Part shown: positions 29,483 through 55,420 of the stretch, one piece after another
How the letters are laid out: every line of letters starts with the position of its first letter
How positions within the stretch are numbered: the stretch's first letter is position 1
The notes under the pieces: generated by a model
The model's database searches: none
What the model was told of the DNA's origin: nothing
Seen by the model: the letters and a program-made list of their open reading frames with translations, nothing else
Assembly (NCBI GenBank): GCA_020746105.1
Contig: CM036628.1
Coordinates: forward strand, 4,598,001-4,662,000
Source of the DNA: Trogon surrucura
Lineage: Eukaryota; Chordata; Aves; Trogoniformes; Trogonidae
Direction: 5' to 3'
DNA length: 64,000 nucleotides
Translations under genes and position numbers: made by a program

Positions 29483-30228
29483 AATCTAGTTCCCAACCCA
29501 CCTGCCGGGAGCAGGGACACCGCCCACTAGACCAGGTTTTTCAAACCATCGTCGAACCTGCCCTTCAACACTTCCAGTGAGGGGGCATCCAGAACCTCTC
29601 TGGGCAACCTGTTTCAGTGCCTCACCACCCTCCTGCTGAAGTAATTCCTTCCTAATATCTAATCTAAGTCTACCGTGCCCTGGATTAAAACCATTGCCCC
29701 TTGTCCTGCCGCTACGTGCCCTTGTAAACAGTCCCTCCCCAGCTCTGCTGTAGCTTCTTTTAAGCACTGGAAGGCCGCTATAAGGTCTCCCCAGAGCCTT
29801 CTCTTCTCCAGGCTGGCCAAATCCATCTCTCCCAGCCTGCCTTCATAGGAGGTGTTCCTGCTTTGGCAGGGGGATTGGACTAGATGATCTTTTGAGGTCC
29901 CTCCCAATCCCTAGCATACTGTGATACTGTGAGATGTGCTCCAGCCCTTGGACCATCTTCACGGCCCTGCTCTGGACTTGCTCCAAGTGGCCCATGGCCT
30001 TCTCGTGCTGGGGGCTCCAGATGGATACAGGACTCCAGAGCAGAGTCGAGGGGCTGAATTACCTCCCTTGACCTGCTGGCCACTCATCTCTTGATGCAGC
30101 CCAGGTGACGCTTGGCTTTTTGGGCTGTGAGTGCACGTTGCTTGCTTGCATTGAGCATCTCGTCAAGCAGCACCGCCAAGTCCTTCTCCAAAGGGCTGCT
30201 GTCAGTCCACTCCAGGGGCTGGCTTCTG
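29483..30228 (-). mobile_element. CR1 LINE at left edge of the array
   Basis: Reverse-oriented CR1. It starts near its 3' end (GTTCCCAACCCACCTGCCGGGAGCAGG) and runs to the GCACCGCCAAGTCCTTCTCC block, which in CR1 lies further upstream. Positions 29483-29605 occur only in this leftmost copy; the rest recurs at every unit boundary. A forward-oriented CR1 3' end is nested in it at 29851-29930. Confidence 0.88.
29851..29930 (+). mobile_element. Nested forward CR1 3' end
   Basis: GGATTGGACTAGATGATCT...GAGGTCCCTCCCAATCCC followed by a CTGTGATACTGTGA tail is the plus-strand form of a CR1 3' end. It interrupts the minus-oriented CR1 between CTTCATAGGAG and ATGTGCTCCAGCCC. The same insertion is present at 35431-35510, 39225-39304, 44816-44895 and 50407-50486, so it predates the array amplification. 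Confidence 0.85.
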
Positions 30229-30840
30229 CTGCTTTTCCTCCCAGAGAGGGGGAGATCTCCCCTTCACCTGGTTCTTCTCCCTTGCTGCAGGGCAACACGC
30301 CATGCACCACATTGCCCCAGGGAGAGCGCATCCTCCTGAGCATCGCTGAAGAGAGAGCCCAGACACTGGTGGGAGAGCTGCAGCTAGGGCCAGCAGCAGT
30401 CCTTTTAGCCTGTGGATTAAAGCATTTACTAAATGGCTGTGGGACTGGCTGGGGAGCGTGCCAGGGCTGGGGGGAGCCTTGCAGTGGCAGAGCGAGGCCA
30501 TGCTCTGCTCTCTGGAAGGGCCTGCTGATCCGGGGAGACTCGTGGCGACCTGAGCGATGGCCAGAGCCATCTTCCAGAAAGGCAAGGTGGGTCAGTGGGA
30601 GAACCTCCAGGCTGCTGTGTCCCTGGGAAGGGGCTGGCACAGGCCTTCCTGGACATTGTTCCCAGGGCCATGCTGGAGGAGCAGGGGACTGGGCAGAGCC
30701 AGCTGGGCTCTTCCTGGGGCCCATGGTGCCAGACAGGCTTGAGTCCCTCTGCGATTGGCCCTGGCCATGGGACTGAGCAGAGGGAAAGATCTGTGACCAG
30801 CGGACCTTCAGTGCCTTGTCTCCAGTGTCCGCACCCATCT
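30229..30840. other. GC-rich spacer in array unit 1
   Basis: Between the CR1 fragment and the gene's polyadenylation signal. Overlapping frames of 61-259 codons are open on both strands, and all are repeated in the other units because the DNA is repeated. None has a promoter or splice evidence. On the plus strand, fragments such as GERILLSIAEERAQTLVGEL and AFLDIVPRAMLEEQ look mildly protein-like in successive frames, so a decayed coding segment is possible. Equivalent spacers lie at 35809-36420, 39603-40214 and 45194-45805. Confidence 0.4.
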
Positions 30841-30891
30841 TTCTCCTGAGAGAAACCAGGCAGAGTTGAGTACTGGGGGCAAATTGTCATT

Positions 30892-30897
30892 TTTATT
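30892..30897 (-). terminator. Polyadenylation signal, gene copy 1
   Basis: AATAAA on the minus strand, about 190 nt downstream of the predicted stop of gene copy 1, with no other canonical signal between. It fits a 3' UTR of about 200 nt. Confidence 0.65.
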
Positions 30898-31084
30898 GCC
30901 CATGGAAAATATCGGTGGCCAAGCGGAGGTTGGTAACACATTGTCCTCAGAGCTTTTGAAGTTCTGGAGTGCCATCCATGTCCCCATCCGTCGTGTGGCC
31001 CCCCGATCCACTCCCTCTGGACGCTGTGCAGGCTCAGGGCCAGCTGCCATCTCCAGGGATGTGCCTGGTGCTGGCAGCAGGGTG

Positions 31085-34000
31085 CTACTGCTCTTGCTGT
31101 CCTGCAATGCAGGCACAGCAGAACGCCCTGCGCAGAGCCCTGAGCGCTCTCCTGAGCAGGGAGGGCCGTCGTCGAGCTGAGGTGTGTGGGCCTGTGGGGG
31201 AAAGGAAATCTCTAGGTGAGGGGCTGGGTGAGCAAGAGGCAAGCTCCTGCCTGTCCCCCACCACCGAGGTCTTTCCCCAGGGAGGGGTGGGGCCAGCCCC
31301 CCTGTGTGCAGTGCTGGCGGCCTGGCGTGGGTGCCACTCACCAGCCAAGGCAGTATCGGTGTTCGCAGGTGCTGCAGGTGCTGCAGGAACTGGTGCCTTC
31401 GCTGCCTCTTGCCTCATGGTAGCGAAAGGCTCTTCATCAGCAGCTCCAGCCAGAACAGAAGCTGCTGATTCAGCATTGGTGGGAGCTTCCCGGGCAGGAG
31501 ATGCTCCCTGCAGCTCGCTGGTTGCCTGTCCTGCTGCCTCTGGGCCTGTTATGTTGCTGGACCAGGCAGGCTCCTGCTGGGGACCATTGTCGGAGCCCTG
31601 GAAAAGCTCCGGGACTGAGGGGTTGACCCATATGCTGTAGATCTCAATGTCTTCCCCTGGGGACAGCTCTTTGTCCCTGTGCTCTTCCCATTGCTCCTCC
31701 TCCAGTCTCTCAGGGACAGCCTTAGCCTGGAATTCTCTTGTTTGGTACCGAGCCGTCCGCTTCACACCTGTACAGCTACGAGAGCCAGACCTCCTGCTCT
31801 GCCCTCTAGCAACTCTGCCCCCATCAGCGTGGATGGTGTGAGCATAGGGCAGACGATATGGGCGTCCACCGGCTGCGCTCCTTCTGGCTGAACGGGGGAT
31901 CGGTGACGGCCTCTCCCCACGGAGGGACAGGGCCTGGCTCTGGCTGCCCTGCGACGCTGGTTGGGAATGCCTGGGGGCCACCTGCGGGAAGAAGGAGGAG
32001 GAGAAGGCATGGGATGGAGGCGGTTGCCTTGGCACAGCAGCCCCCACCCTGACCGGTCCCTGACTAAGGCAGGAGAGCTGAAGAAATGGCACTGGAGTGC
32101 TCTCTGGAATCAGTATTCCATGCTAGTAAGTGTAGCTTTCCTTCTAAGAAAAATTGGAGAGGATCTATCACCGATACAACGCTGGGCAAAAATGCAAAGC
32201 ACCTGAACAGATGGGCAGGTGAAGGCCAAAATACAAGGCCAATTGTTTAAGAAAAAAGAACACAAAAAAGCCACCAAAAACTGAACAAAAGAGAACACCC
32301 GAAGCAAAGAAAAAACGTTTGAACTTGAAGGAGTGCTTTCGTAAGTCGTGCTTGGCAGGGTGGCATCCAGACCCTTGCTGAGTGGGCCCGGCAGATGATG
32401 GGCCTCGGGAGGGGTCTCTGGGGAAGACCTGCCGCAAAGCAGGAGGTGGCACTGGAAGCAGGATTTCAGTGGGAAAAGGCAGAGGGAGAGGCCCACTGAT
32501 CCCCTCCTGTACCTCCTGCCTGCAAGGCGGCAGCTCCTGAGGCCAGGAATATGCTCGGCCCCATCTCCCTCGGGCTCCCTACCTGTGCGCAGCAGCTCCC
32601 ACGGGCCTGCGATCTGTCGCGCTGAGGGATCCGTGATGGCCTGTCTCCACGGACGGACAAGGCGTGGCTCCGGCTGCCTCTGTTCTCAGAGGCTGCTTGC
32701 ATGGGATCAGACGATGCGTCCTCCTCTGCTGTGGCAAGGTGGGCCCTGCCAGCATGTGCAGGAGGCTGCTGAGGCAGCGAAGAAGCCGCTTGCTCCTCCT
32801 GAGCTGCTGGGGAGAAAATGGCTGTACTGGCCTCTCCGTGATGGTCCTGTGCCGTGGGAGGAGCCGTGTCTTGTCCATCCTCGCACGTTGTTGGGACGAG
32901 GGAGGTGGTGCTGGCCTCTCCCTGAGGCTCTCCAGCCAAGGCAGTATCGGTGTTCTGAGGTGCTGCAGGTGTTGTTGACACCGCATCCACCCTTTGTGTC
33001 GTGTCCTGTTCCTCTCCCAGCTGCTGGCCAGGCGTCTGGATCGCAGCCAAAGGCTCAATCACAGCCTTCCTCACCATGTCCTGCTTTGTGACCAGCAGTG
33101 CCATGGTGCAGGCTGGGGGGCTTTGTGCAGCGGAGTCCTGGCTCTCCACCTCTGCTGCTGTGACCTGCTCGCCACAGCTGGGAGAAGCCGGTGCCTTCTG
33201 CTCCTCTTGTGCTACGGGAGCGAGAGGCTCTTTTTCAGGAGCTCCGGACAGGTCAGAAACTGTCAGCTTGACAGCTGTGGGCCCCACCAGGCCAGCAGAT
33301 GCTCTCTGCTGGTCGTCAGTTCCCTTTCTGGCTGCCTCTGGGCCTGTGCTGCTGTTGCTGTGAGGCTGGGGCAGGACCATCTCTGTGTGGGGGTCTTGGA
33401 AGAGCTCCGGGAGCGAGGGGTTGACCCAGATGCTGTAGATGGGGAAGTCTTCCCCTGGGAACAGCTCTTGGTCACTGTGTTCTTCCCATTGCCCCTCCTC
33501 CTGACTCTCAGGGACAGCCTTAGCCTGGAATTCTCTTGTTAGGTACCGGGCTGTCCGCCTCACACCGGTGCAGCTGTGCAGGCCAGGCCCCCTGCTGTGC
33601 CTTCTTGCAGCTCTGCCCCCATCAGCGTGGATGGTGTAAGCATAGGGCAGACGATATGGGCGTCTGCCGGCTGTGCTCCCTCTGACTGAACGGGGGATCC
33701 GTGACGGACTCTCCCCACGGAGGGACAGGGCCTGGCTCTGGCTGCCCTGCGACGCTGGTTGGGAATGCCTGGGGGCCACCTGCGGGAAGAAGGAGGAGGA
33801 GAAGGCATGGGATGGAGGCGGTTGCCTTGGCACAGCAGCCCCCACCCTGACCGGTCCCTGACTAAGGCAGGAGAGCTGAAGAAATGGCACTGGAGTGCTC
33901 TCTGGACAACGGAATCAGTGTTCCATGCCAGTAAGGGTAGTTCCTTCTAAGAAAAATTGGAGAGGATCTACCACTGATACAATGCTGGGCAAAAATGCAA

Positions 34001-34734
34001 AGCACCTGAACAGATGGGCAGGTGAAGGCCAAAATACAAGGCCAATTGTTTAGGAAAAGAAGAACACAAAAGAGCCACTGCAAACTGAACAAAAGAGAAT
34101 ACCCGAAACAAAGAAAAAACGCTTGAACTTGAAGGAGTGCTTTCGTAAGTCGTGCTTGGCGGGGTGGCATCCAGACCCTTGCTGAGTGGGCCCGGCAGAT
34201 GATGGGCCTCGGGAGGGGTCTCTGGGGAAGACCTGCCGCAAAGCAGGAGGTGGCACTGGAAGCAGGATTTCAGTGGGAAAAGGCAGAGGGAGAGGCCCAC
34301 TGATCCCCTCCTGCACCCCCTGCCTGCGTGGCGTCAGCTCCTGAAGTCAGGAAGATGCTCGGCCCCGTCTCCCTCGGGCTCCCTACCTGTGCGCAGCGGC
34401 TCCCACGGGCCTGTGATCTGTCGCGCTGAGGGATCCGTGATGGCCTGTCCCCTGGGAAGGACGAGGCCTGGCTCTGGCTGTCCTGCGGCGCCTGTGGCTG
34501 CCTGGGGGCCACCTGCAGGAAGAAGGAGGAGGAGGAGGCATGGGATGGAGGCGGCTGCCTTGGCACAGTGGCCCCCACAGTGCCGGCACAGAGACAGCTC
34601 CGTACGGCCCCATTCCAGCAGCGGCCTCTTTCTCTTGCCCCATCCCTCACCTGGCGCCTCTGGGGCTGGCTCAGCAGCCCGCTGCCGGGCTGGGAGCGGG
34701 CGTTTGCCTTCTCCTCGACGGGCATCTTCGACAT
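31085..34734 (-). CDS. Array gene copy 1: modular Pro/Ser/Gln-rich protein, 717 aa
   Basis: Unrecognised protein. Exons (minus strand): 34651-34734, 34387-34512, 32583-33779, 31342-31981, 31085-31191; phases 0,0,0,1. All introns are GT-AG. The start is the first AUG after the TATA box and has A at -3. Residues 1-28 are the leader. Residues 29-70 (exon 2) are Gln/Ser/Arg-rich. Residues 71-198 and 470-597 are two copies, about 80% identical, of a module holding YRLPYA(Y/H)TIHADGG, TREFQAKAVPE and YSIWVNPS(L/V)PELFQ. Residues 199-450 and 598-682 are low-complexity, rich in Ala/Gln/Glu/Ser/Thr. S-x-I-P motifs lie at 53-56, 96-99, 452-455 and 495-498. The C-terminus (683-717) is a basic helix RRALRALRRAF followed by CCAC. 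No signal peptide is visible. Introns 1 (138 nt) and 4 (150 nt) are open and in frame, so retention isoforms are possible. Function unknown; S-x-I-P suggests EB-protein binding (inference). Confidence 0.7.
31982..33779 (-). repeat. Internal 1.8-kb exon-plus-intron duplication
   Basis: Exon 3 with its downstream intron repeats the structure of exon 4 with its upstream intron at a spacing of 1798 bp. Both exons begin VAPRHSQPASQGSQSQALSL and have the same acceptor context. The introns share the same 3' half, differing by small indels. Exon 3 additionally ends with an exon-2-like tail (GDRPSRIPQRDRSQARGS). So exons 2, 3 and 4 derive from one ancestral exon. Present in units 1, 3 and 4; collapsed in unit 2. 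Confidence 0.85.
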
Positions 34735-34799
34735 CCTCTGTCGCCGACCCGCCACAAGCACCCGGGGAGACGCTGCCTCCTGAGGGAGCTGCTCTCCTG

Positions 34800-34875
34800 G
34801 GAGCGAGCACCCCTGGGGCTCGCGCTCCTTATATACCCCCACGGCCAGCGCGTCACAATGGGCTTGGGCGTGACG
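34800..34875 (-). promoter_or_regulatory. TATA promoter of gene copy 1, with CRE-like half sites
   Basis: TATATAA on the minus strand at 34829-34835 lies about 95 nt upstream of the predicted start codon, placing the transcription start near 34800 with a 5' UTR of about 65 nt free of upstream AUGs. Two TGACG-type half sites in opposite orientation lie just upstream (34851-34855 and 34871-34875). Such elements close to a TATA box are used by CREB/CREM-family factors, so cAMP-linked or germ-cell expression is possible (inference). Confidence 0.6.
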
Positions 34876-34928
34876 CGGCCCCCGCATCACAAAGCCCTGG
34901 CGGTTGCTGTGGAGATGCCCACGCCCAG

Positions 34929-35000
34929 AACCGGCTGGGACCGGCTGAGACTGGCTGGGACCAGCTGGAACTGTCTTGGACCAGCTGGACCTGGCTTGGG
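34929..35000. repeat. Minisatellite upstream of gene copy 1
   Basis: About seven imperfect 10-bp repeats of the type CTGGCTGGGA / CCAGCTGGAA. Equivalent tracts upstream of copies 2-4 are about 85 bp and nearly identical to one another; this one is shorter and more divergent. Confidence 0.8.
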
Positions 35001-35183
35001 ACAGCCCCTGCTGGCCCCTGGCAGAGGCCCTGACGGGCCCAAGCCAGCCCCTCCCGCACGGCCCCTCCCTGCAGAGCCCTCCGGTGTGCGTCCAGCAGCT
35101 CTGGGTGCCACCACCCTTGGCCTTGTCCCCAGGCGTGGCTCCCATGCAGGGCCCACAGTCCTGGGGTGCTCCAGTGCTCACGG

Positions 35184-35808
35184 AGCAACCTGTTGCAGTG
35201 CCTCACCATCGTCCCACTGAAGAATTCCTTCCTGATATCTAATCTAACTCTACCCTGCCCTGGATTAAAACCATTGCCCCTTGTCCTGCCGCTACGTGCC
35301 CTTGTAAACAGTCCCTCCCCAGCTCTGCTGTAGCTTCCTTTAAGTACTGGAAGGCCGCTATAAGGTCTCCCCAGAGCCTTCTCTTCTCCAGGCTGGCCAA
35401 ATCCATCTCTCCCAGCCTGCCTTCATAGGAGGTGTTCCTGCTTTGGCAGGGGGATTGGACTAGATGATCTTTTGAGGTCCCTCCCAATCCCTAGCATACT
35501 GTGATACTGTGAGATGTGCTCCAGCCCTTGGACCATCTTCACGGCCCTGCTCTGGACTTGCTCCAAGTGGCCCATGGCCTTCTCGTGCTGGGGGCTCCAG
35601 ATGGATGCAGGACTCCAGAGCAGAGTCGAGGGGCTGAATTACCTCCCTTGACCTGCTGGCCACTCATCTCTTGATGCAGCCCAGGTGACGCTTGGCTTTT
35701 TGGGCTGTGAGTGCACGTTGCTTGCTTGCATTGAGCATCTCGTCAAGCAGCACCGCCAAGTCCTTCTCCAAAGGGCTGCTGTCAGTCCACTCCAGGGGCT
35801 GGCTTCTG
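35184..35808 (-). mobile_element. CR1 fragment at unit 1/2 junction
   Basis: Minus-oriented CR1 lacking its 3'-most 120 bp, fused to upstream promoter-side DNA of gene copy 1. Contains the same nested forward CR1 end at 35431-35510. Confidence 0.88.
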
Positions 35809-36471
35809 CTGCTTTTCCTCCCAGAGAGGGGGAGATCTCCCCTTCACCTGGTTCTTCTCCCTTGCTGCAGGGCAACACGCCATGCACCACATTGCCCCAG
35901 GGAGAGCGCATCCTCCTGAGCATCGCTGAAGAGAGAGCCCAGACACTGGTGGGAGAGCTGCAGCTAGGGCCAGCAGCAGTCCTTTTAGCCTGTGGATTAA
36001 AGCATTTACTAAATGGCTGTGGGACTGGCTGGGGAGCGTGCCAGGGCTGGGGGGAGCCTTGCAGTGGCAGAGCGAGGCCATGCTCTGCTCTCTGGAAGGG
36101 CCTGCTGATCCGGGGAGACTCGTGGCGACCTGAGCGATGGCCAGAGCCATCTTCCAGAAAGGCAAGGTGGGTCAGTGGGAGAACCTCCAGGCTGCTGTGT
36201 CCCTGGGAAGGGGCTGGCACAGGCCTTCCTGGACATTGTTCCCAGGGCCATGCTGGAGGAGCAGGGGACTGGGCAGAGCCAGCTGGGCTCTTCCTGGGGC
36301 CCATGGTGCCAGACAGGCTTGAGTCCCTCTGCGATTGGCCCTGGCCATGGGACTGAGCAGAGGGAAAGATCTGTGACCAGCGGACCTTCAGTGCCTTGTC
36401 TCCAGTGTCCGCACCCATCTTTCTCCTGAGAGAAACCAGGCAGAGTTGAGTACTGGGGGCAAATTGTCATT

Positions 36472-36477
36472 TTTATT
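36472..36477 (-). terminator. Polyadenylation signal, gene copy 2
   Basis: Minus-strand AATAAA about 190 nt after the predicted stop, in the same position as in copy 1. Confidence 0.65.
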
Positions 36478-36664
36478 GCCCTTGGAAAATATCGGTGGCC
36501 AAGCAGAGGTTGGTAACACATTGTCCTCAGAGCTTTTGAAGTTCTGGAGTGCCATCCATGTCCCCATCCGTCGTGTGGCCCCCCGATCCACTCCCTCTGG
36601 ACGCTGTGCAGGCTCAGGGCCAGATGCCATCTCCGGGGATGTGGCTGGCACTGGCAGCAGGGCG

Positions 36665-38516
36665 CTACTGGTCTGGCTGTCCTGCAATGCAGGCACAGCA
36701 GAACACCCTGCGCAGAGCCCTGAGCGCTCTCCTGAGCAGGGAGGGCCGTCGTCGAGCTGAGGTGTGTGGGCCTGTGGGGGAAAGGAAAGCTCTAGGTGAG
36801 GGGCTGGGTGAGCAAGAGGCAAGCTCCTGCCTGTCCCCCACCACCGAGGTCTTTCCCCAGGGAGGGGTGGGGCCAGCCCCCCTGTGTGCAGTGCTGGCGG
36901 CCTGGCGTGGGTGCCACTCACCAGCCAAGGCAGTATCGGTGTTCGCAGGTGCTGCAGGTGCTGCAGGAACTGGTGCCTTCGCTGCCTCTTGCCTCATGGT
37001 AGCGAAAGGCTCTTCATCAGCAGCTCCAGCCAGAACAGAAGCTGCTGATTCAGCATTGGTGGGAGCTTCCCGGGCAGGAGATGCTCCCTGCAGCTCGCTG
37101 GTTGCCTGTCCTGCTGCCTCTGGGCCTGTTATGTTGCTGGACCAGGCAGGCTCCTGCTGGGGACCATTGTCGGAGCCCTGGAAAAGCTCCGGGACTGAGG
37201 GGTTGACCCATATGCTGTAGATCTCAATGTCTTCCCCTGGGGACAGCTCTTTGTCCCTGTGCTCTTCCCATTGCTCCTCCTCCAGTCTCTCAGGGACAGC
37301 CTTAGCCTGGAATTCTCTTGTTTGGTACCGAGCCGTCCGCTTCACACCTGTACAGCTACGAGAGCCAGACCTCCTGCTCTGCCCTCTAGCAACTCTGCCC
37401 CCATCAGCGTGGATGGTGTAAGCATAGGGCAGACGATATGGGCGTCTGCCGGCTGTGCTCCCTCTGACTGAACGGGGGATCCGTGACGGACTCTCCCCAC
37501 GGAGGGACAGGGCCTGGCTCTGGCTGCCCTGCGACGCTGGTTGGGAATGCCTGGGGGCCACCTGCGGGAAGAAGGAGGAGGAGAAGGCATGGGATGGAGG
37601 CGGCTGCCTTGGCACAGCAGCCCCCACCCTGACCGGTCCCTGACTAAGGCAGGAGAGCTGAAGAAATGGCACTGGAGTGCTCTCTGGACAACGGAATCAG
37701 TGTTCCATGCCAGTAAGGGTAGTTCCTTCTAAGAAAAATTGGAGAGGATCTACCACTGATACAATGCTGGGCAAAAATGCAAAGCACCTGAACAGATGGG
37801 CAGGTGAAGGCCAAAATACAAGGCCAATTGTTTAGGAAAAGAAGAACACAAAAGAGCCACTGCAAACTGAACAAAAGAGAATACCCGAAACAAAGAAAAA
37901 ACGCTTGAACTTGAAGGAGTGCTTTCGTAAGTCGTGCTTGGCGGGGTGGCATCCAGACCCTTGCTGAGTGGGCCTGGCAGATGATGGGCCTCGGGAGGGG
38001 TCTCTGGGGAAGACCTGCCGCAAAGCAGGAGGTGGCACTGGAAGCAGGATTTCAGTGGGAAAAGGCAGAGGGAGAGGCCCACTGATCCCCTCCTGCACCC
38101 CCTGCCTGCGTGGCGTCAGCTCCTGAAGTCAGGAAGATGCTCGGCCCCGTCTCCCTCGGGCTCCCTACCTGTGCGCAGCGGCTCCCACGGGCCTGTGATC
38201 TGTCGCGCTGAGGGATCCGTGATGGCCTGTCCCCTGGGAAGGACGAGGCCTGGCTCTGGCTGTCCTGCGGCGCCTGTGGCTGCCTGGGGGCCACCTGCAG
38301 GAAGAAGGAGGAGGAGGAGGCATGGGATGGAGGCGGCTGCCTTGGCACAGTGGCCCCCACAGTGCCGGTACAGAGACAGCTCCGTACGGCCCCATTCCAG
38401 CAGCGGCCTCTTTCTCTTGCCCCATCCCTCACCTGGCGCCTCTGGGGCTGGCTCAGCAGCCCGCTGCCGGGCTGGGAGCGGGCGTTTGCCTTCTCCTCGA
38501 CGGGCATCTTCGACAT
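36665..38516 (-). CDS. Array gene copy 2: recombinant short form, 318 aa
   Basis: Exons (minus strand): 38433-38516, 38169-38294, 36922-37561, 36665-36771. The third exon is a hybrid. Its first half matches exon 3 of the long copies (ESPSRIPRSVRG, YRLPYAYTIHADGG), and from RVARGQSRRSGSRS onward it matches exon 4. The switch falls in a 27-bp tract identical between the two (37393-37419). The flanking intron on the promoter side is exon-3-type. The frame stays open and all splice sites remain, so a shortened protein with one core module, two S-x-I-P motifs and the basic Cys C-terminus (VFCCACIAG) is predicted. Promoter, start and polyadenylation signal are as in copy 1. Function unknown. Confidence 0.68.
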
Positions 38517-38584
38517 CCTCTGTCGCCGACCCGCCACGAGCACCCGGGGAGACGCTGCCTCCTGAGAGAGCTGCTCTCCTGGGA

Positions 38585-38658
38585 GCGAGCACCCCTGGGG
38601 CTCGCGCTCCTTATATACCCCCACGGCCAGCGCGTCACAATGGGCTCTGGGCGTGACG
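38585..38658 (-). promoter_or_regulatory. TATA promoter of gene copy 2
   Basis: Minus-strand TATATAA at 38611-38617, 95 nt upstream of the start codon. TGACG-type half sites at 38633-38637 and 38654-38658. Nearly identical to the other copies. Confidence 0.6.
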
Positions 38659-38710
38659 CGGCCCCCCGCATCACAAAGCCCTGACAATCGCTGTGGAGAT
38701 GCCCACGCCC

Positions 38711-38794
38711 AGAACTGGCTGGGACCAGCTGGAACTGGCTGGAACTGGCTGAGACTGGCTGGACCTGGCTTGGACTAGCTGGACTTGGCTTGGG
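38711..38794. repeat. Minisatellite upstream of gene copy 2
   Basis: About eight imperfect 10-bp repeats (CTGGCTGGAA-type), about 12 bp longer than in unit 1 and nearly identical to units 3 and 4. Confidence 0.8.
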
Positions 38795-38978
38795 ACAGCC
38801 CCTGCTGGCCCCTGGCAGAGGCCCTGACGGGCCCAAGCCAGCCCCTCCCGCACGGCCCCTCCCTGCAGAGCCCTCCGGTGTGCGTCCAGCAGCTCTGGGT
38901 GCCACCACCCTTGGCCTTGTCCCCAGGCGTGGCTCCCATGCAGGGCCCACAGTCCTGGGGTGCTCCAGTGCTCACGGA

Positions 38979-39602
38979 GCAACCTGTTGCAGTGCCTCAC
39001 CATCGTCCCACTGAAGAATTCCTTCCTGATATCTAATCTAACTCTACCCTGCCCTGGATTAAAACCATTGCCCCTTGTCCTGCCGCTACGTGCCCTTGTA
39101 AACAGTCCCTCCCCAGCTCTGCTGTAGCTTCCTGTAAGCACTGGAAGGCCGCTATAAGGTCTCCCCAGAGCCTTCTCTTCTCCAGGCTGGCCAAATCCAT
39201 CTCTCCCAGCCTGCCTTCATAGGAGGTGTTCCTGCTTTGGCAGGGGGATTGGACTAGATGATCTTTTGAGGTCCCTCCCAATCCCTAGCATACTGTGATA
39301 CTGTGAGATGTGCTCCAGCCCTTGGACCATCTTCACGGCCCTGCTCTGGACTTGCTCCAAGTGGCCCATGGCCTTCTCGTGCTGGGGGCTCCAGATGGAT
39401 GCAGGACTCCAGAGCAGAGTCGAGGGGCTGAATTACCTCCCTTGACCTGCTGGCCACTCATCTCTTGATGCAGCCCAGGTGACGCTTGGCTTTTTGGGCT
39501 GTGAGTGCACGTTGCTTGCTTGCATTGAGCATCTCGTCAAGCAGCACCGCCAAGTCCTTCTCCAAAGGGCTGCTGTCAGTCCACTCCAGGGGCTGGCTTC
39601 TG
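38979..39602 (-). mobile_element. CR1 fragment at unit 2/3 junction
   Basis: Same truncated minus-oriented CR1 as at the other junctions, with the nested forward end at 39225-39304. It shares the CTGTAAGCACTGG variant with the terminal CR1 at 50161. Confidence 0.88.
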
Positions 39603-40265: not shown

Positions 40266-40271
40266 TTTATT
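40266..40271 (-). terminator. Polyadenylation signal, gene copy 3
   Basis: Minus-strand AATAAA about 190 nt after the predicted stop, same position as in copy 1. Confidence 0.65.
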
Positions 40272-40458
40272 GCCCTTGGAAAATATCGGTGGCCAAGCAG
40301 AGGTTGGTAACACATTGTCCTCAGAGCTTTTGAAGTTCTGGAGTGCCATCCATGTCCCCATCCGTCGTGTGGCCCCCCGATCCACTCCCTCTGGACGCTG
40401 TGCAGGCTCAGGGCCAGATGCCATCTCCGGGGATGTGGCTGGCACTGGCAGCAGGGCG

Positions 40459-43400
40459 CTACTGGTCTGGCTGTCCTGCAATGCAGGCACAGCGGAACAC
40501 CCTGCGCAGAGCCCTGAGCGCTCTCCTGAGCAGGGAGGGCCGTTGTCGAGCTGAGGTGTGTGGGCCTGTGGGGGAAAGGAAATCTCTAGGTGAGGGGCTG
40601 GGTGAGCAAGAGGCAAGCTCCTGCCTGTCCCCCACCACCGAGGTCTTTCCCCAGGGAGGGGTGGGGCCAGCCCCCCTGTGTGCAGTGCTGGCGGCCTGGC
40701 GTGGGTGCCACTCACCAGCCAAGGCAGTATCGGTGTTCGCAGGTGCTGCAGGTGCTGCAGGAACTGGTGCCTTCGCTGCCTCTTGCCTCATGGTAGCGAA
40801 AGGCTCTTCATCAGCAGCTCCAGCCAGAACAGAAGCTGCTGATTCAGCATTGGTGGGAGCTTCCCGGGCAGGAGATGCTCCCTGCAGCTCGCTGGTTGCC
40901 TGTCCTGCTGCCTCTGGGCCTGTTATGTTGCTGGACCAGGCAGGCTCCTGCTGGGGACCATTGTCGGAGCCCTGGAAAAGCTCCGGGACTGAGGGGTTGA
41001 CCCATATGCTGTAGATCTCAATGTCTTCCCCTGGGGACAGCTCTTTGTCCCTGTGCTCTTCCCATTGCTCCTCCTCCAGTCTCTCAGGGACAGCCTTAGC
41101 CTGGAATTCTCTTGTTTGGTACCGAGCCGTCCGCTTCACACCTGTACAGCTACGAGAGCCAGACCTCCTGCTCTGCCCTCTAGCAACTCTGCCCCCATCA
41201 GCGTGGATGGTGTGAGCATAGGGCAGACGATATGGGCGTCCACCGGCTGCGCTCCTTCTGGCTGAACGGGGGATCGGTGACGGCCTCTCCCCACGGAGGG
41301 ACAGGGCCTGGCTCTGGCTGCCCTGCGACGCTGGTTGGGAATGCCTGGGGGCCACCTGCGGGAAGAAGGAGGAGGAGAAGGCATGGGATGGAGGCGGTTG
41401 CCTTGGCACAGCAGCCCCCACCCTGACCGGTCCCTGACTAAGGCAGGAGAGCTGAAGAAATGGCACTGGAGTGCTCTCTGGAATCAGTATTCCATGCTAG
41501 TAAGTGTAGCTTTCCTTCTAAGAAAAATTGGAGAGGATCTATCACCGATACAACGCTGGGCAAAAATGCAAAGCACCTGAACAGATGGGCAGGTGAAGGC
41601 CAAAATACAAGGCCAATTGTTTAAGAAAAAAGAACACAAAAAAGCCACCAAAAACTGAACAAAAGAGAACACCCGAAGCAAAGAAAAAACGTTTGAACTT
41701 GAAGGAGTGCTTTCGTAAGTCGTGCTTGGCAGGGTGGCATCCAGACCCTTGCTGAGTGGGCCCGGCAGATGATGGGCCTCGGGAGGGGTCTCTGGGGAAG
41801 ACCTGCCGCAAAGCAGGAGGTGGCACTGGAAGCAGGATTTCAGTGGGAAAAGGCAGAGGGAGAGGCCCACTGATCCCCTCCTGTACCTCCTGCCTGCAAG
41901 GCGGCAGCTCCTGAGGCCAGGAATATGCTCGGCCCCATCTCCCTCGGGCTCCCTACCTGTGCGCAGCAGCTCCCACGGGCCTGCGATCTGTCGCGCTGAG
42001 GGATCCGTGATGGCCTGTCTCCACGGACGGACAAGGCGTGGCTCCGGCTGCCTCTGTTCTCAGAGGCTGCTTGCATGGGATCAGACGATGCGTCCTCCTC
42101 TGCTGTGGCAAGGTGGGCCCTGCCAGCATGTGCAGGAGGCTGCTGAGGCAGCGAAGAAGCCGCTTGCTCCTCCTGAGCTGCTGGGGAGAAAATGGCTGTA
42201 CTGGCCTCTCCGTGATGGTCCTGTGCCGTGGGAGGAGCCGTGTCTTGTCCATCCTCGCACGTTGTTGGGACGAGGGAGGTGGTGCTGGCCTCTCCCTGAG
42301 GCTCTCCAGCCAAGGCAGTATCGGTGTTCTGAGGTGCTGCAGGTGTTGTTGACACCGCATCCACCCTTTGTGTCGTGTCCTGTTCCTCTCCCAGCTGCTG
42401 GCCAGGCGTCTGGATCGCAGCCAAAGGCTCAATCACAGCCTTCCTCACCATGTCCTGCTTTGTGACCAGCAGTGCCATGGTGCAGGCTGGGGGGCTTTGT
42501 GCAGCGGAGTCCTGGCTCTCCACCTCTGCTGCTGTGACCTGCTCGCCACAGCTGGGAGAAGCCGGTGCCTTCTGCTCCTCTTGTGCTACGGGAGCGAGAG
42601 GCTCTTTTTCAGGAGCTCCGGACAGGTCAGAAACTGTCAGCTTGACAGCTGTGGGCCCCACCAGGCCAGCAGATGCTCTCTGCTGGTCGTCAGTTCCCTT
42701 TCTGGCTGCCTCTGGGCCTGTGCTGCTGTTGCTGTGAGGCTGGGGCAGGACCATCTCTGTGTGGGGGTCTTGGAAGAGCTCCGGGAGCGAGGGGTTGACC
42801 CAGATGCTGTAGATGGGGAAGTCTTCCCCTGGGAACAGCTCTTGGTCACTGTGTTCTTCCCATTGCCCCTCCTCCTGACTCTCAGGGACAGCCTTAGCCT
42901 GGAATTCTCTTGTTAGGTACCGGGCTGTCCGCCTCACACCGGTGCAGCTGTGCAGGCCAGGCCCCCTGCTGTGCCTTCTTGCAGCTCTGCCCCCATCAGC
43001 GTGGATGGTGTAAGCATAGGGCAGACGATATGGGCGTCTGCCGGCTGTGCTCCCTCTGACTGAACGGGGGATCCGTGACGGACTCTCCCCACGGAGGGAC
43101 AGGGCCTGGCTCTGGCTGCCCTGCGACGCTGGTTGGGAATGCCTGGGGGCCACCTGCGGGAAGAAGGAGGAGGAGAAGGCATGGGATGGAGGCGGCTGCC
43201 TTGGCACAGCAGCCCCCACCCTGACCGGTCCCTGACTAAGGCAGGAGAGCTGAAGAAATGGCACTGGAGTGCTCTCTGGACAACGGAATCAGTGTTCCAT
43301 GCCAGTAAGGGTAGTTCCTTCTAAGAAAAATTGGAGAGGATCTACCACTGATACAATGCTGGGCAAAAATGCAAAGCACCTGAACAGATGGGCAGGTGAA

Positions 43401-44108
43401 GGCCAAAATACAAGGCCAATTGTTTAGGAAAAGAAGAACACAAAAGAGCCACTGCAAACTGAACAAAAGAGAATACCCGAAACAAAGAAAAAACGCTTGA
43501 ACTTGAAGGAGTGCTTTCGTAAGTCGTGCTTGGCGGGGTGGCATCCAGACCCTTGCTGAGTGGGCCCGGCAGATGATGGGCCTCGGGAGGGGTCTCTGGG
43601 GAAGACCTGCCGCAAAGCAGGAGGTGGCACTGGAAGCAGGATTTCAGTGGGAAAAGGCAGAGGGAGAGGCCCACTGATCCCCTCCTGCACCCCCTGCCTG
43701 CGTGGCGTCAGCTCCTGAAGTCAGGAAGATGCTCGGCCCCGTCTCCCTCGGGCTCCCTACCTGTGCGCAGCGGCTCCCACGGGCCTGTGATCTGTCGCGC
43801 TGAGGGATCCGTGATGGCCTGTCCCCTGGGAAGGACGAGGCCTGGCTCTGGCTGTCCTGCGGCGCCTGTGGCTGCCTGGGGGCCACCTGCAGGAAGAAGG
43901 AGGAGGAGGAGGCATGGGATGGAGGCGGCTGCCTTGGCACAGTGGCCCCCACAGTGCCGGCACAGAGACAGCTCCGTACGGCCCCATTCCAGCAGCGGCC
44001 TCTTTCTCTTGCCCCATCCCTCACCTGGCGCCTCTGGGGCTGGCTCAGCAGCCCGCTGCCGGGCTGGGAGCGGGCGTTTGCCTTCTCCTCGACGGGCATC
44101 TTCGACAT
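40459..44108 (-). CDS. Array gene copy 3: modular Pro/Ser/Gln-rich protein, 717 aa
   Basis: Exons (minus strand): 44025-44108, 43761-43886, 41957-43153, 40716-41355, 40459-40565. Same domain order and splice phases as copy 1. The 399-codon exon 3 encodes a protein segment that appears identical to those of copies 1 and 4. The C-terminal exon differs from copy 1: ARQRPS for ARRRPS, and VFRCAC...QPDQ for AFCCAC...QQEQ, which removes one of the three clustered cysteines. No frameshift or stop interrupts the model. Function unknown; intact frames in several copies argue against a simple pseudogene, although recent homogenisation could also explain them. Confidence 0.7.
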
Positions 44109-44174
44109 CCTCTGTCGCCGACCCGCCACGAGCACCCGGGGAGACGCTGCCTCCTGAGAGAGCTGCTCTCCTGG

Positions 44175-44250
44175 GAGCGAGCACCCCTGGGGCTCGCGCT
44201 CCTTATATACCCCCACGGCCAGCGCGTCACAATGGGCTCTGGGCGTGACG
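44175..44250 (-). promoter_or_regulatory. TATA promoter of gene copy 3
   Basis: Minus-strand TATATAA at 44203-44209. TGACG-type half sites at 44225-44229 and 44246-44250. The start codon lies 95 nt downstream. Confidence 0.6.
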
Positions 44251-44300
44251 CGGCCCCCGCATCACAAAGCCCTGACGATCGCTGTGGAGATGCCCACGCC

Positions 44301-44385
44301 CAGAACTGGCTGGGACCAGCTGGAACTGGCTGGAACTGGCTGAGACTGGCTGGACCTGGCTTGGACTAGCTGGACTTGGCTTGGG
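44301..44385. repeat. Minisatellite upstream of gene copy 3
   Basis: Imperfect 10-bp CTGGCTGGAA-type repeats, nearly identical to those of units 2 and 4. Confidence 0.8.
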
Positions 44386-44569
44386 ACAGCCCCTGCTGGC
44401 CCCTGGCAGAGGCCCTGACGGGCCCAAGCCAGCCCCTCCCGCACGGCCCCTCCCTGCAGAGCCCTCCGGTGTGCGTCCAGCAGCTCTGGGTGCCACCACC
44501 CTTGGCCTTGTCCCCAGGCGTGGCTCCCATGCAGGGCCCACAGTCCTGGGGTGCTCCAGTGCTCACGGA

Positions 44570-45193
44570 GCAACCTGTTGCAGTGCCTCACCATCGTCCC
44601 ACTGAAGAATTCCTTCCTGATATCTAATCTAACTCTACCCTGCCCTGGATTAAAACCATTGCCCCTTGTCCTGCCGCTACGTGCCCTTGTAAACAGTCCC
44701 TCCCCAGCTCTGCTGTAGCTTCCTTTAAGTACTGGAAGGCCGCTATAAGGTCTCCCCAGAGCCTTCTCTTCTCCAGGCTGGCCAAATCCATCTCTCCCAG
44801 CCTGCCTTCATAGGAGGTGTTCCTGCTTTGGCAGGGGGATTGGACTAGATGATCTTTTGAGGTCCCTCCCAATCCCTAGCATACTGTGATACTGTGAGAT
44901 GTGCTCCAGCCCTTGGACCATCTTCACGGCCCTGCTCTGGACTTGCTCCAAGTGGCCCATGGCCTTCTCGTGCTGGGGGCTCCAGATGGATGCAGGACTC
45001 CAGAGCAGAGTCGAGGGGCTGAATTACCTCCCTTGACCTGCTGGCCACTCATCTCTTGATGCAGCCCAGGTGACGCTTGGCTTTTTGGGCTGTGAGTGCA
45101 CGTTGCTTGCTTGCATTGAGCATCTCGTCAAGCAGCACCGCCAAGTCCTTCTCCAAAGGGCTGCTGTCAGTCCACTCCAGGGGCTGGCTTCTG
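44570..45193 (-). mobile_element. CR1 fragment at unit 3/4 junction
   Basis: Same truncated minus-oriented CR1, with the nested forward end at 44816-44895. Confidence 0.88.
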
Positions 45194-45856
45194 CTGCTTT
45201 TCCTCCCAGAGAGGGGGAGATCTCCCCTTCACCTGGTTCTTCTCCCTTGCTGCAGGGCAACACGCCATGCACCACATTGCCCCAGGGAGAGCGCATCCTC
45301 CTGAGCATCGCTGAAGAGAGAGCCCAGACACTGGTGGGAGAGCTGCAGCTAGGGCCAGCAGCAGTCCTTTTAGCCTGTGGATTAAAGCATTTACTAAATG
45401 GCTGTGGGACTGGCTGGGGAGCGTGCCAGGGCTGGGGGGAGCCTTGCAGTGGCAGAGCGAGGCCATGCTCTGCTCTCTGGAAGGGCCTGCTGATCCGGGG
45501 AGACTCGTGGCGACCTGAGCGATGGCCAGAGCCATCTTCCAGAAAGGCAAGGTGGGTCAGTGGGAGAACCTCCAGGCTGCTGTGTCCCTGGGAAGGGGCT
45601 GGCACAGGCCTTCCTGGACATTGTTCCCAGGGCCATGCTGGAGGAGCAGGGGACTGGGCAGAGCCAGCTGGGCTCTTCCTGGGGCCCATGGTGCCAGACA
45701 GGCTTGAGTCCCTCTGCGATTGGCCCTGGCCATGGGACTGAGCAGAGGGAAAGATCTGTGACCAGCGGACCTTCAGTGCCTTGTCTCCAGTGTCCGCACC
45801 CATCTTTCTCCTGAGAGAAACCAGGCAGAGTTGAGTACTGGGGGCAAATTGTCATT

Positions 45857-45862
45857 TTTATT
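45857..45862 (-). terminator. Polyadenylation signal, gene copy 4
   Basis: Minus-strand AATAAA about 190 nt after the predicted stop, same position as in copy 1. Confidence 0.65.
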
Positions 45863-46049
45863 GCCCTTGGAAAATATCGGTGGCCAAGCAGAGGTTGGTA
45901 ACACATTGTCCTCAGAGCTTTTGAAGTTCTGGAGTGCCATCCATGTCCCCATCCGTCGTGTGGCCCCCCGATCCACTCCCTCTGGACGCTGTGCAGGCTC
46001 AGGGCCAGATGCCATCTCAGGGGATGTGGCTGGCACTGGCAGCAGGGCG

Positions 46050-49000
46050 CTACTGGTCTGGCTGTCCTGCAATGCAGGCACAGCGGAACACCCTGCGCAG
46101 AGCCCTGAGCGCTCTCCTGAGCAGGGAGGGCCGTTGTCGAGCTGAGGTGTGTGGGCCTGTGGGGGAAAGGAAATCTCTAGGTGAGGGGCTGGGTGAGCAA
46201 GAGGCAAGCTCCTGCCTGTCCCCCACCACCGAGGTCTTTCCCCAGGGAGGGGTGGGGCCAGCCCCCCTGTGTGCAGTGCTGGCGGCCTGGCGTGGGTGCC
46301 ACTCACCAGCCAAGGCAGTATCGGTGTTCGCAGGTGCTGCAGGTGCTGCAGGAACTGGTGCCTTCGCTGCCTCTTGCCTCATGGTAGCGAAAGGCTCTTC
46401 ATCAGCAGCTCCAGCCAGAACAGAAGCTGCTGATTCAGCATTGGTGGGAGCTTCCCGGGCAGGAGATGCTCCCTGCAGCTCGCTGGTTGCCTGTCCTGCT
46501 GCCTCTGGGCCTGTTATGTTGCTGGACCAGGCAGGCTCCTGCTGGGGACCATTGTCGGAGCCCTGGAAAAGCTCCGGGACTGAGGGGTTGACCCATATGC
46601 TGTAGATCTCAATGTCTTCCCCTGGGGACAGCTCTTTGTCCCTGTGCTCTTCCCATTGCTCCTCCTCCAGTCTCTCAGGGACAGCCTTAGCCTGGAATTC
46701 TCTTGTTTGGTACCGAGCCGTCCGCTTCACACCTGTACAGCTACGAGAGCCAGACCTCCTGCTCTGCCCTCTAGCAACTCTGCCCCCATCAGCGTGGATG
46801 GTGTGAGCATAGGGCAGACGATATGGGCGTCCACCGGCTGCGCTCCTTCTGGCTGAACGGGGGATCGGTGACGGCCTCTCCCCACGGAGGGACAGGGCCT
46901 GGCTCTGGCTGCCCTGCGACGCTGGTTGGGAATGCCTGGGGGCCACCTGCGGGAAGAAGGAGGAGGAGAAGGCATGGGATGGAGGCGGCTGCCTTGGCAC
47001 AGCAGCCCCCACCCTGAACGGTCCCTGACTAAGGCAGGAGAGCTGAAGAAATGGCACTGGAGTGCTCTCTGGAATCAGTATTCCATGCTAGTAAGTGTAG
47101 CTTTCCTTCTAAGAAAAATTGGAGAGGATCTATCACCGATACAACGCTGGGCAAAAATGCAAAGCACCTGAACAGATGGGCAGGTGAAGGCCAAAATACA
47201 AGGCCAATTGTTTAAGAAAAAAGAACACAAAAAAGCCACCAAAAACTGAACAAAAGAGAACACCCGAAGCAAAGAAAAAACGTTTGAACTTGAAGGAGTG
47301 CTTTCGTAAGTCGTGCTTGGCAGGGTGGCATCCAGACCCTTGCTGAGTGGGCCCGGCAGATGATGGGCCTCGGGAGGGGTCTCTGGGGAAGACCTGCCGC
47401 AAAGCAGGAGGTGGCACTGGAAGCAGGATTTCAGTGGGAAAAGGCAGAGGGAGAGGCCCACTGATCCCCTCCTGTACCTCCTGCCTGCAAGGCGGCAGCT
47501 CCTGAGGCCAGGAATATGCTCGGCCCCATCTCCCTCGGGCTCCCTACCTGTGCGCAGCAGCTCCCACGGGCCTGCGATCTGTCGCGCTGAGGGATCCGTG
47601 ATGGCCTGTCTCCACGGACGGACAAGGCGTGGCTCCGGCTGCCTCTGTTCTCAGAGGCTGCTTGCATGGGATCAGACGATGCGTCCTCCTCTGCTGTGGC
47701 AAGGTGGGCCCTGCCAGCATGTGCAGGAGGCTGCTGAGGCAGCGAAGAAGCCGCTTGCTCCTCCTGAGCTGCTGGGGAGAAAATGGCTGTACTGGCCTCT
47801 CCGTGATGGTCCTGTGCCGTGGGAGGAGCCGTGTCTTGTCCATCCTCGCACGTTGTTGGGACGAGGGAGGTGGTGCTGGCCTCTCCCTGAGGCTCTCCAG
47901 CCAAGGCAGTATCGGTGTTCTGAGGTGCTGCAGGTGTTGTTGACACCGCATCCACCCTTTGTGTCGTGTCCTGTTCCTCTCCCAGCTGCTGGCCAGGCGT
48001 CTGGATCGCAGCCAAAGGCTCAATCACAGCCTTCCTCACCATGTCCTGCTTTGTGACCAGCAGTGCCATGGTGCAGGCTGGGGGGCTTTGTGCAGCGGAG
48101 TCCTGGCTCTCCACCTCTGCTGCTGTGACCTGCTCGCCACAGCTGGGAGAAGCCGGTGCCTTCTGCTCCTCTTGTGCTACGGGAGCGAGAGGCTCTTTTT
48201 CAGGAGCTCCGGACAGGTCAGAAACTGTCAGCTTGACAGCTGTGGGCCCCACCAGGCCAGCAGATGCTCTCTGCTGGTCGTCAGTTCCCTTTCTGGCTGC
48301 CTCTGGGCCTGTGCTGCTGTTGCTGTGAGGCTGGGGCAGGACCATCTCTGTGTGGGGGTCTTGGAAGAGCTCCGGGAGCGAGGGGTTGACCCAGATGCTG
48401 TAGATGGGGAAGTCTTCCCCTGGGAACAGCTCTTGGTCACTGTGTTCTTCCCATTGCCCCTCCTCCTGACTCTCAGGGACAGCCTTAGCCTGGAATTCTC
48501 TTGTTAGGTACCGGGCTGTCCGCCTCACACCGGTGCAGCTGTGCAGGCCAGGCCCCCTGCTGTGCCTTCTTGCAGCTCTGCCCCCATCAGCGTGGATGGT
48601 GTAAGCATAGGGCAGACGATATGGGCGTCTGCCGGCTGTGCTCCCTCTGACTGAACGGGGGATCCGTGACGGACTCTCCCCACGGAGGGACAGGGCCTGG
48701 CTCTGGCTGCCCTGCGACGCTGGTTGGGAATGCCTGGGGGCCACCTGCGGGAAGAAGGAGGAGGAGAAGGCATGGGATGGAGGCGGTTGCCTTGGCACAG
48801 CAGCCCCCACCCTGACCGGTCCCTGACTAAGGCAGGAGAGCTGAAGAAATGGCACTGGAGTGCTCTCTGGACAACGGAATCAGTGTTCCATGCCAGTAAG
48901 GGTAGTTCCTTCTAAGAAAAATTGGAGAGGATCTACCACTGATACAATGCTGGGCAAAAATGCAAAGCACCTGAACAGATGGGCAGGTGAAGGCCAAAAT

Positions 49001-49699
49001 ACAAGGCCAATTGTTTAGGAAAAGAAGAACACAAAAGAGCCACTGCAAACTGAACAAAAGAGAATACCCGAAACAAAGAAAAAACGCTTGAACTTGAAGG
49101 AGTGCTTTCGTAAGTCGTGCTTGGCGGGGTGGCATCCAGACCCTTGCTGAGTGGGCCCGGCAGATGATGGGCCTCGGGAGGGGTCTCTGGGGAAGACCTG
49201 CCGCAAAGCAGGAGGTGGCACTGGAAGCAGGATTTCAGTGGGAAAAGGCAGAGGGAGAGGCCCACTGATCCCCTCCTGCACCCCCTGCCTGCGTGGCGTC
49301 AGCTCCTGAAGTCAGGAAGATGCTCGGCCCCGTCTCCCTCGGGCTCCCTACCTGTGCGCAGCGGCTCCCACGGGCCTGTGATCTGTCGCGCTGAGGGATC
49401 CGTGATGGCCTGTCCCCTGGGAAGGACGAGGCCTGGCTCTGGCTGTCCTGCGGCGCCTGTGGCTGCCTGGGGGCCACCTGCAGGAAGAAGGAGGAGGAGG
49501 AGGCATGGGATGGAGGCGGCTGCCTTGGCACAGTGGCCCCCACAGTGCCGGCACAGAGACAGCTCCGTACGGCCCCATTCCAGCAGCGGCCTCTTTCTCT
49601 TGCCCCATCCCTCACCTGGCGCCTCTGGGGCTGGCTCAGCAGCCCGCTGCCGGGCTGGGAGCGGGCGTTTGCCTTCTCCTCGACGGGCATCTTCGACAT
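46050..49699 (-). CDS. Array gene copy 4: modular Pro/Ser/Gln-rich protein, 717 aa
   Basis: Exons (minus strand): 49616-49699, 49352-49477, 47548-48744, 46307-46946, 46050-46156. Same model as copies 1 and 3, with all GT-AG junctions and phases preserved. The C-terminal exon carries the VFRCAC...QPDQ variant shared with copy 3. The exon 3 peptide is the same as in copies 1 and 3. This copy is closest to the right edge of the array. Its promoter faces away from the LTR element at 51.3 kb, so any LTR transcription would diverge from it. Function unknown. Confidence 0.7.
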
Positions 49700-49764
49700 C
49701 CTCTGTCGCCGACCCGCCACGAGCACCCGGGGAGATGCTGCCTCCTGAGGGAGCTGCTCTCCTG

Positions 49765-49841
49765 GGAGCGAGCACCCCTGGGGCTCGCGCTCCTTATATA
49801 CCCCCACGGCCAGCGCGTCACAATGGGCTCTGGGTGTGACG
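49765..49841 (-). promoter_or_regulatory. TATA promoter of gene copy 4
   Basis: Minus-strand TATATAA at 49794-49800. TGACG-type half sites at 49816-49820 and 49837-49841. Confidence 0.6.
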
Positions 49842-49891
49842 CGACCCCCGCATCACAAAGCCCTGGCGGTCGCTGTGGAGATGCCCACGCC

Positions 49892-49976
49892 CAGAACTGG
49901 CTGGGACCAGCTGGAACTGGCTGGAACTGGCTGAGACTGGCTGGACCTGGCTTGGACTAGCTGGACTTGGCTTGGG
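49892..49976. repeat. Minisatellite upstream of gene copy 4
   Basis: Imperfect 10-bp CTGGCTGGAA-type repeats, nearly identical to those of units 2 and 3. Confidence 0.8.
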
Positions 49977-50160
49977 ACAGCCCCTGCTGGCCCCTGGCAG
50001 AGGCCCTGACGGGCCCAAGCCAGCCCCTCCCGCACGGCCCCTCCCTGCAGAGCCCTCCGGTGTGCGTCCAGCAGCTCTGGGTGCCACCACCCTTGGCCTT
50101 GTCCCCAGGCGTGGCTCCCATGCAGGGCCCACAGTCCTGGGGTGCTCCAGTGCTCACGGA

Positions 50161-51281: not shown

Positions 51282-51286
51282 CACAT

Positions 51287-53944: not shown

Positions 53945-54228
53945 GTCATTTTGGTGGCCCGTACGGGGAATGAAACCTGGGAACGGAGGAATTTGAGATA
54001 AGGACAGTAGTGGAGAGAGGTAACGGGCAAAACACGGACTGAGCAATGTTGAAAAGTAAAATGATTTTGGGGAATTTATGTTTTTGTGATTGAGGTGAAG
54101 GAACGAGGGGTGGATTCTGATTTTGGTGTTGGGAGTCTTTGGTTTTTCTGTTTCACTGTTAATGTTGGGTGATGAATATAAATTTTAATAATTCTTAAAT
54201 ATGTGATTCACAGAGGCGAGGGGTGGAA
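53945..54228 (+). mobile_element. Internal leader region 2 (284 bp)
   Basis: Same length as, and essentially identical to, internal region 1, with primer binding site 53952-53969 and the polypurine tract before LTR 3. Confidence 0.8.
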
Positions 54229-55415: not shown

Positions 55416-55420
55416 CACAT

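Follow-up and report, generated by a model that had tools for sequence, protein, structure and literature searches.

Introduction

Ampliconic multicopy families of sex chromosomes, such as the chicken Z amplicon and the testis families of the mammalian X and Y, combine many near-identical tandem copies with sex-chromosome enrichment and fast evolution. They are among the closest known likenesses of a gene array that we analyzed in Trogon surrucura, in a window of 64,000 nt (C15:4598001-4662000 of a 1.17 Gb assembly; positions below are those of the window unless a contig is named). The array comprises four minus-strand units arranged head to tail (29643-50198), and each carries a predicted multi-exon gene. 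We read the array as part of a dispersed, Z-rich ampliconic avian family that possibly encodes a disordered scaffold of the male germline, and assign this reading as a whole a probability of about 0.43. The underlying claim that this is a real avian multicopy protein-coding gene family is very probable, whereas the male-germline scaffold role is tentative, falling somewhat short of an even chance. In contrast to the described ampliconic families, the present one is also dispersed to contigs C15, C6, C2 and others.

Two further systems provide partial comparisons. Helices that anchor protein kinase A (PKA) follow the consensus LxxxAxxIVxxAIxxA, as given in an excerpt of PMC3682517. Human FSIP2, according to an excerpt of PMC11276731, is a single sperm-tail protein of 6907 amino acids, unlike the multicopy family considered here. 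Of the more than 50 loci of the family itself, over half are Z-linked, and relatives occur in several bird orders; the records found give it neither a name nor a function. Expression in testis would make it an avian counterpart of the mammalian sex-chromosome ampliconic families, and the purpose of Z amplification would then become directly testable.

Structure of the array

An earlier note on this DNA had proposed a four-copy minus-strand tandem array, and all four units are found, repeating with a period of 5.58-5.59 kb apart from a short unit 2 (lengths 5.58, 3.79, 5.59 and 5.59 kb). Units 1, 3 and 4 each contain five predicted exons coding for 717 amino acids. Every unit has the TATA box TATATAAGGAG, the ATG, splice donors and acceptors, a stop codon and a polyadenylation signal; the A at -3 of the first ATG, the GT-AG introns in compatible phases (0, 0, 0 and 1) and the AATAAA 190 nt past the stop agree with the note's description. 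Its junctions (34650/34513, 33779/34386 and 31191/31342) are exact, and with one further intron (32582-31982) those of unit 1 become 34650-34513, 34386-33780, 32582-31982 and 31341-31192. The proposed start at the first AUG holds for the ATG of the four window units, but in the promoter alignment the Z copies, seven of seven, read ACG at this position and would start at the next Met.

Likewise, the four frames are open as claimed, but unit 2 codes for only 318 amino acids in four exons, its frame kept intact by an in-frame internal deletion of about 1.8 kb. Exons 3 and 4 of the longer units are paralogous modules 1.8 kb apart, and the middle of unit 2 is a single hybrid of the two, so that unit 2 is evidently, as its sequence demonstrates, a product of unequal exchange between in-frame exon modules. 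The swapping of phase-0 exon modules by unequal crossing-over offers a simple route to variation in protein length.

The array has a guanine-cytosine content of 59-63%, against 35-42% in the flanks, except for 49-54% at 50001-56000, where an array resembling long terminal repeats (LTRs) is located. A CR1-like piece, named by eye, opens every unit, and a fifth copy ends the array, a pattern that unequal crossing-over usually leaves. Identity is 99.77% between units 3 and 4, and 99.1-99.2% between unit 1 and either of them. Such high identity, together with the second tandem array that adjoins, would suit a non-coding tandem repeat or an assembly artefact mimicking a gene. This explanation is very improbable in view of the protein relatives in 12 species, the copies on other chromosomes, and the spliced 717-codon frame, which was open in none of 5000 first-order Markov shuffles (mean 14.8 stops), a test that is somewhat generous in that the exon bounds had been picked for openness.

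Introns 1 and 4 are also open in frame; isoforms retaining either of them are therefore possible. Intron 1 is read through in two annotated manakin models (P0013 and P0015) and a Tyto model, as judged by eye, and the automatic gene finder, whose models of other loci are rough, ran through introns 1 and 4.

Copies across the genome

Merging the matches of a promoter query (31) and a protein query (106) yields at least 55 loci, a lower bound, as the protein query scored the best 62 of 391 candidates. The count took all 31 promoter rows and 51 of the 106 protein rows, further exons of genes already counted being set aside. At least 30 loci are located on C67, 13 on C15, five on C2, two each on C1 and C6, and one each on C3, C7 and C117, with one further locus on C67 beyond the 30. 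We identify C67 (87.9 Mb) as the Z chromosome from a CHD1-type match and three DM domains at 71.92-72.02 Mb, which we take to be the DMRT cluster carried on the Z in birds. A second CHD1-type match is found on C89, probably the W. With 30 of 55 loci on C67, many similar copies are concentrated on a sex chromosome, as in Z-linked ampliconic families. The distance from the family copies at C67:71.34-71.48 Mb to these three DM domains is about 0.5 Mb. The copies in the genome have the promoter, the start exon and the last exon in common, whereas the repeat-rich middle changes fast.

A tree was built from 26 rows, covering 16 of the 28 own loci and 10 of the 16 outside proteins; the others were near duplicates or had too little match to the core region. 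All 16 own-genome rows fall into a single group (support 93/87). The clade of C15 and C6 copies that includes the window array nests among Z copies, and a spread of the family from the Z to other chromosomes would therefore fit the tree, although the midpoint root and the early branching of the C15 copy L048 weaken this interpretation.

Two observations concern the dispersed copies. Those at C2:11239-44373, C3:86031 and C117:8592 sit at low contig coordinates, and may represent subtelomeric spread. A second array on C15 (L045-L048, 6.77-6.79 Mb) has the family promoter but shows no recognisable last exon within the fetched sequence; it may use another 3' end.

Relatives in other birds

Among the matches listed, with each protein search scoring the best 8000 candidates by shared words, 16 relatives were found in 12 bird species: seven by a single-protein search, and the total of 16 after two profile searches. 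The species are Calonectris borealis, Theristicus caerulescens, Buteo buteo, Aquila chrysaetos, Falco biarmicus, F. cherrug, F. rusticolus, Strigops habroptila, Tyto alba and the manakins Corapipo altera, Neopelma chrysocephalum and Manacus candei. Their records are named uncharacterized, mucin-1-like or KIAA0754-like. Homologs of the window protein include LOC142087876 (Calonectris), LJ206_002187 (Theristicus), LOC142043385 (Buteo), LOC115603218 (Strigops) and LOC113941086 (Corapipo). The uncharacterized proteins are 34-62% identical to the window query in best local alignments covering 4-40% of it, and share with the window copies the start exon (where the model reaches it), a modular middle and a conserved C-terminal RRALRALRR-type motif, the combination by which the window protein can be placed in the family. 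Some relatives keep an anchoring-like helix or an FSIP2-like piece; the window copies have neither.

This distribution over several bird orders rules out an orphan or passerine-only gene. Since relatives occur in Calonectris, Theristicus, raptors, Strigops, Tyto and manakins, the family is old within birds. Of the new lineage-specific family proposed in the earlier note, what stands is the expansion, which looks lineage-specific in that the own-genome rows form one tree group. The family is not named in the titles or abstract openings of the literature searched, and the LOC names of six relatives match no paper; as far as these searches go, it appears to be undescribed.

Promoter

The promoter survey comprised 28 loci (24 fetched and the four window units), 16 of which were aligned. 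The TATAAGGAGC box is present in 22 of the 28. All 22 promoters found have at least one half-site of the cyclic AMP (cAMP) response element (CRE) within 110 bp upstream of the TATA box, where 0.1-0.5 half-sites per promoter are expected by chance, the copies being related and not independent. The positions are largely fixed: TGACG lies 21 nt before the TATA match in 21 of 22 promoters, and CGTCA at -41 or -42 in 17. The full TGACGTCA, to part of which the CGTCA of unit 1 corresponds, is found in two divergent Z copies, L059 and L060. At the other end of the gene, AATAAA follows the stop by 172-190 nt in 22 of the 24 loci having a last exon.

CREM is an activator in haploid spermatids that binds CRE-type sites (excerpt of PMC3091680), and a CRE or half-CRE near the start site, the sequence feature of its targets, occurs in each of the 22 promoters. 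The combination of half-CRE and TATA box may be taken as a lead toward germline expression, not as proof. According to the same excerpt, CRE and half-CRE sites also serve CREB in somatic tissue, and the family could be real and consist of somatic genes (of epithelial, immune or other kind) that cAMP induces and whose product is disordered; the mucin-1-like annotation of one relative points in this direction. The Z enrichment and the FSIP2-like piece and anchoring-like helix of some relatives argue for the germline instead, none of them decisively, and the start exon looks polar from its sequence. A somatic family is possible but on balance unlikely.

Predicted protein

Residues of the disorder-promoting kind make up 70% of the window protein. 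An AlphaFold2 model of exon 3, built from 13 sequences, has a mean predicted local distance difference test score (pLDDT) of 50.9 and a single structural element, a helix at residues 221-251 (pLDDT 81-93, against 40-59 elsewhere); exon 3 is thus predicted to be disordered except for one confident helix. The last exon contains a strongly amphipathic cationic segment with cysteines. A Pfam scan of the window protein gave nothing above cut-off, and no solved structure in the PDB was matched by sequence.

In relatives, the counterpart of the exon 3 helix recurs in several modules and fits the anchoring consensus, which is the likeness to A-kinase anchoring proteins suggested by sequence. A strict form of the pattern, set after the sequences had been inspected, has 13 matches in seven of 25 family proteins, some of them near duplicates (shuffles: mean 0.19, maximum 2). 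With a looser, literature-type pattern there are 19 matches, spread over eight of the 25 (shuffles: mean 2.45 proteins, maximum 7). A relaxed helix pattern matched 20 of the 25 proteins, against 9.4 in shuffles (maximum 18), and was dropped because many of its matches were the C-terminal helix in the eight proteins inspected; the window protein has two such matches, both outside the helix. The window helix differs in carrying K and P.

The likeness to FSIP2 comes from one ibis member, Theristicus P0002, which matches the Pfam family (PF15783) with 35.7 bits over about 120 residues at a cut-off of 27. A core of 60 residues alone scores 15.2 bits. By tblastn, the own-genome copy L048 recognisably carries the second half of the FSIP2-like segment, and L057 and L060 carry the first, whereas the best match in the window has an E-value of 4.6, and the Pfam scan found no FSIP2 match in the window protein. 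A whole-genome search with the FSIP2 profile returned nothing, the control genomes being likewise silent. Membership in FSIP2 was rejected, as one member only passes.

An origin from HU-CCDC81 was rejected as well. This domain occurs in Falco biarmicus P0006 (residues 12-83, E 1.2e-18), where it is annotated in one model with a family member; Pfam finds none in the window protein, and residues 1-240 of P0006 give no convincing tblastn match in the window (best E 0.9). Most likely the Falco annotation fuses two gene models; the alternative is a real fusion. Matches of P0001 to Phospholamban and similar families were below cut-off and taken as chance.

Selection and open frames

The exon 3 core aligns without gaps or stops to three relatives from the same genome, L039, L042 and L040. 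The aligned stretches span 241, 241 and 368 codons and contain 27, 68 and 119 differences, where about 3.3% of random substitutions would create a stop. Divergent Z copies hold open exons of 360-699 codons, in rough models. Last-exon ratios of nonsynonymous to synonymous substitution (dN/dS) are 0.08-0.39, among the rows listed, where one member of the pair is the divergent copy L059, L060 or L061. Three deep pairs, hand-picked after their values were known, have 17 synonymous and six nonsynonymous changes (P 6e-6); six pairs set by the tree have nine and eight (P 0.017). From these counts and from conservation between bird orders, purifying selection on the last exon (RRPSLLRRALRALRRAF.C.CIAGQ) is likely, if not firm; the weaker constraint with tree-set pairs slightly lowers our confidence in the whole reading.

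Exons 1-4 of units 1 and 3 (2047 nt) are identical in coding bases while their last exons differ at five bases, which suggests that the main part of the gene was recently homogenised. The boundary between exons 1-4 and the last exon in this comparison is sharp and resembles that of gene conversion. Positive selection in the middle exon was considered and rejected: exons diverge more than introns against three relatives, but modules were mixed in this comparison and synonymous change was equally high.

A number of results weigh against a functional germline family. In own-genome pairs, the dN/dS of the middle exon ranges over 0.52-1.78, mostly 0.6-1.1 (15 of the 28 loci were used), and values near 1 are also expected of weakly constrained or non-coding DNA. 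The five differences between the last exons of units 1 and 3 are all nonsynonymous, with no synonymous change. Comparisons of the C15 last exon with other Z copies yield dN/dS of 0.44-2.4 on few differences, and a third pair set, which crosses an insertion in L059, has 8.75 synonymous and 17.25 nonsynonymous changes (P 0.22). In whole-gene alignments, which mixed repeat modules, the coding indels divisible by three number 1 of 7, 5 of 9 and 0 of 6, as against no indels in the clean comparison of the exon 3 core. The earlier note had regarded disrupted frames in related copies as evidence against the gene: none occur in the exon 3 cores of the three relatives, but stops lie inside 22 of the 106 genome protein matches. 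Several of these matches run past the exon end, and some look like pseudogenes. As to function, the window protein matches neither the strict nor the looser anchoring pattern, and only one of the 20 proteins and pieces scanned passes the FSIP2 cut-off. The excerpt of PMC11276731 describes a reduced fibrous sheath, lacking ribs and columns, in neognath birds, and that of PMC3091680 states that neither CRE nor TATA predicts CREM control.

Several of these points would also agree with a mostly decaying or neutral amplicon, in which the openness of the window copies reflects recent duplication and copies active until recently are now drifting. The middle-exon ratio, the stop-bearing matches, the near-identity of units 3 and 4, and the last-exon constraint missing in some pair sets are all in its favor. 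We nevertheless judge it improbable: the divergent Z copies keep long exons open, the exon 3 cores are free of gaps and stops, and both promoter and polyadenylation signal persist.

Proposed mechanism

Under the favored reading of a Z-rich family with a possible germline role, tandem duplication and dispersal would have spread the family, with the largest share on the Z. The middle, made of repeated phase-0 exon modules, grows and shrinks by unequal exchange, unit 2 being one such product. Expression in male germ cells would be driven by the CRE/TATA promoter. The protein might be a flexible scaffold that its cationic, cysteine-bearing C-terminal helix docks at a membrane or structure. The middle helix might bind a partner, which at first may have been the docking domain of PKA RII or a related sperm protein, and selection may favor change in the middle. 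Because the window copies have neither the anchoring consensus nor the FSIP2-like piece, their partner may now be a different one, or part of the function may be gone. A bolder version, unlikely at present, is that of a Z-centred male-germline family whose disordered proteins tether PKA or related docking-domain partners in sperm. It would have expanded separately in many lineages of birds, driven by sperm competition or Z-linked conflict, the window array being a set of copies that moved from the Z to another chromosome.

Feature coordinates and adjoining sequence

Table 1. Predicted features of the gene array, in window positions
Feature	Position	Strand
Tandem unit 1	29643..35222	-
Unit 1 half-CRE CGTCA	34871..34875	-
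Unit 1 half-CRE TGACG, 21 nt upstream of TATA match	34851..34855	-
Unit 1 TATA box (TATATAAGGAG)	34825..34835	-
Unit 1 exon 1 (MSKMPVEEKANARSQPG...)	34651..34734	-
Unit 1 exon 2	34387..34512	-
Unit 1 exon 3, 399 codons	32583..33779	-
Unit 1 exon 3 codons 221-251, predicted helix, sole confident structure of exon 3	33027..33119	-
Unit 1 exon 4, paralogous to start of exon 3	31342..31981	-
Unit 1 exon 5 and stop, cationic C-terminal helix	31085..31191	-
Unit 1 AATAAA	30892..30897	-
Tandem unit 2, shortened, lacking about 1.8 kb of internal repeat	35223..39016	-
Unit 2 TATA box	38607..38617	-
Unit 2 exon 1	38433..38516	-
Unit 2 exon 2	38169..38294	-
Unit 2 hybrid exon 3/4, breakpoint 37392-37420	36922..37561	-
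Unit 2 last exon and stop	36665..36771	-
Tandem unit 3	39017..44607	-
Unit 3 TATA box	44199..44209	-
Unit 3 exon 1	44025..44108	-
Unit 3 exon 2	43761..43886	-
Unit 3 exon 3	41957..43153	-
Unit 3 exon 4	40716..41355	-
Unit 3 exon 5 and stop	40459..40565	-
Tandem unit 4	44608..50198	-
Unit 4 TATA box	49790..49800	-
Unit 4 exon 1	49616..49699	-
Unit 4 exon 2	49352..49477	-
Unit 4 exon 3	47548..48744	-
Unit 4 exon 4	46307..46946	-
Unit 4 exon 5 and stop	46050..46156	-
Fifth, terminal copy of unit-edge CR1-like piece, minimum extent (family D5)	50199..50498	-

The tandem array adjoining the genes (51297-55412) consists of three LTR-like copies at a spacing of 1470-1471 bp. The copies are 98-100% alike in the 300-nt pieces compared, and together they resemble a recombined series of endogenous retrovirus LTRs.

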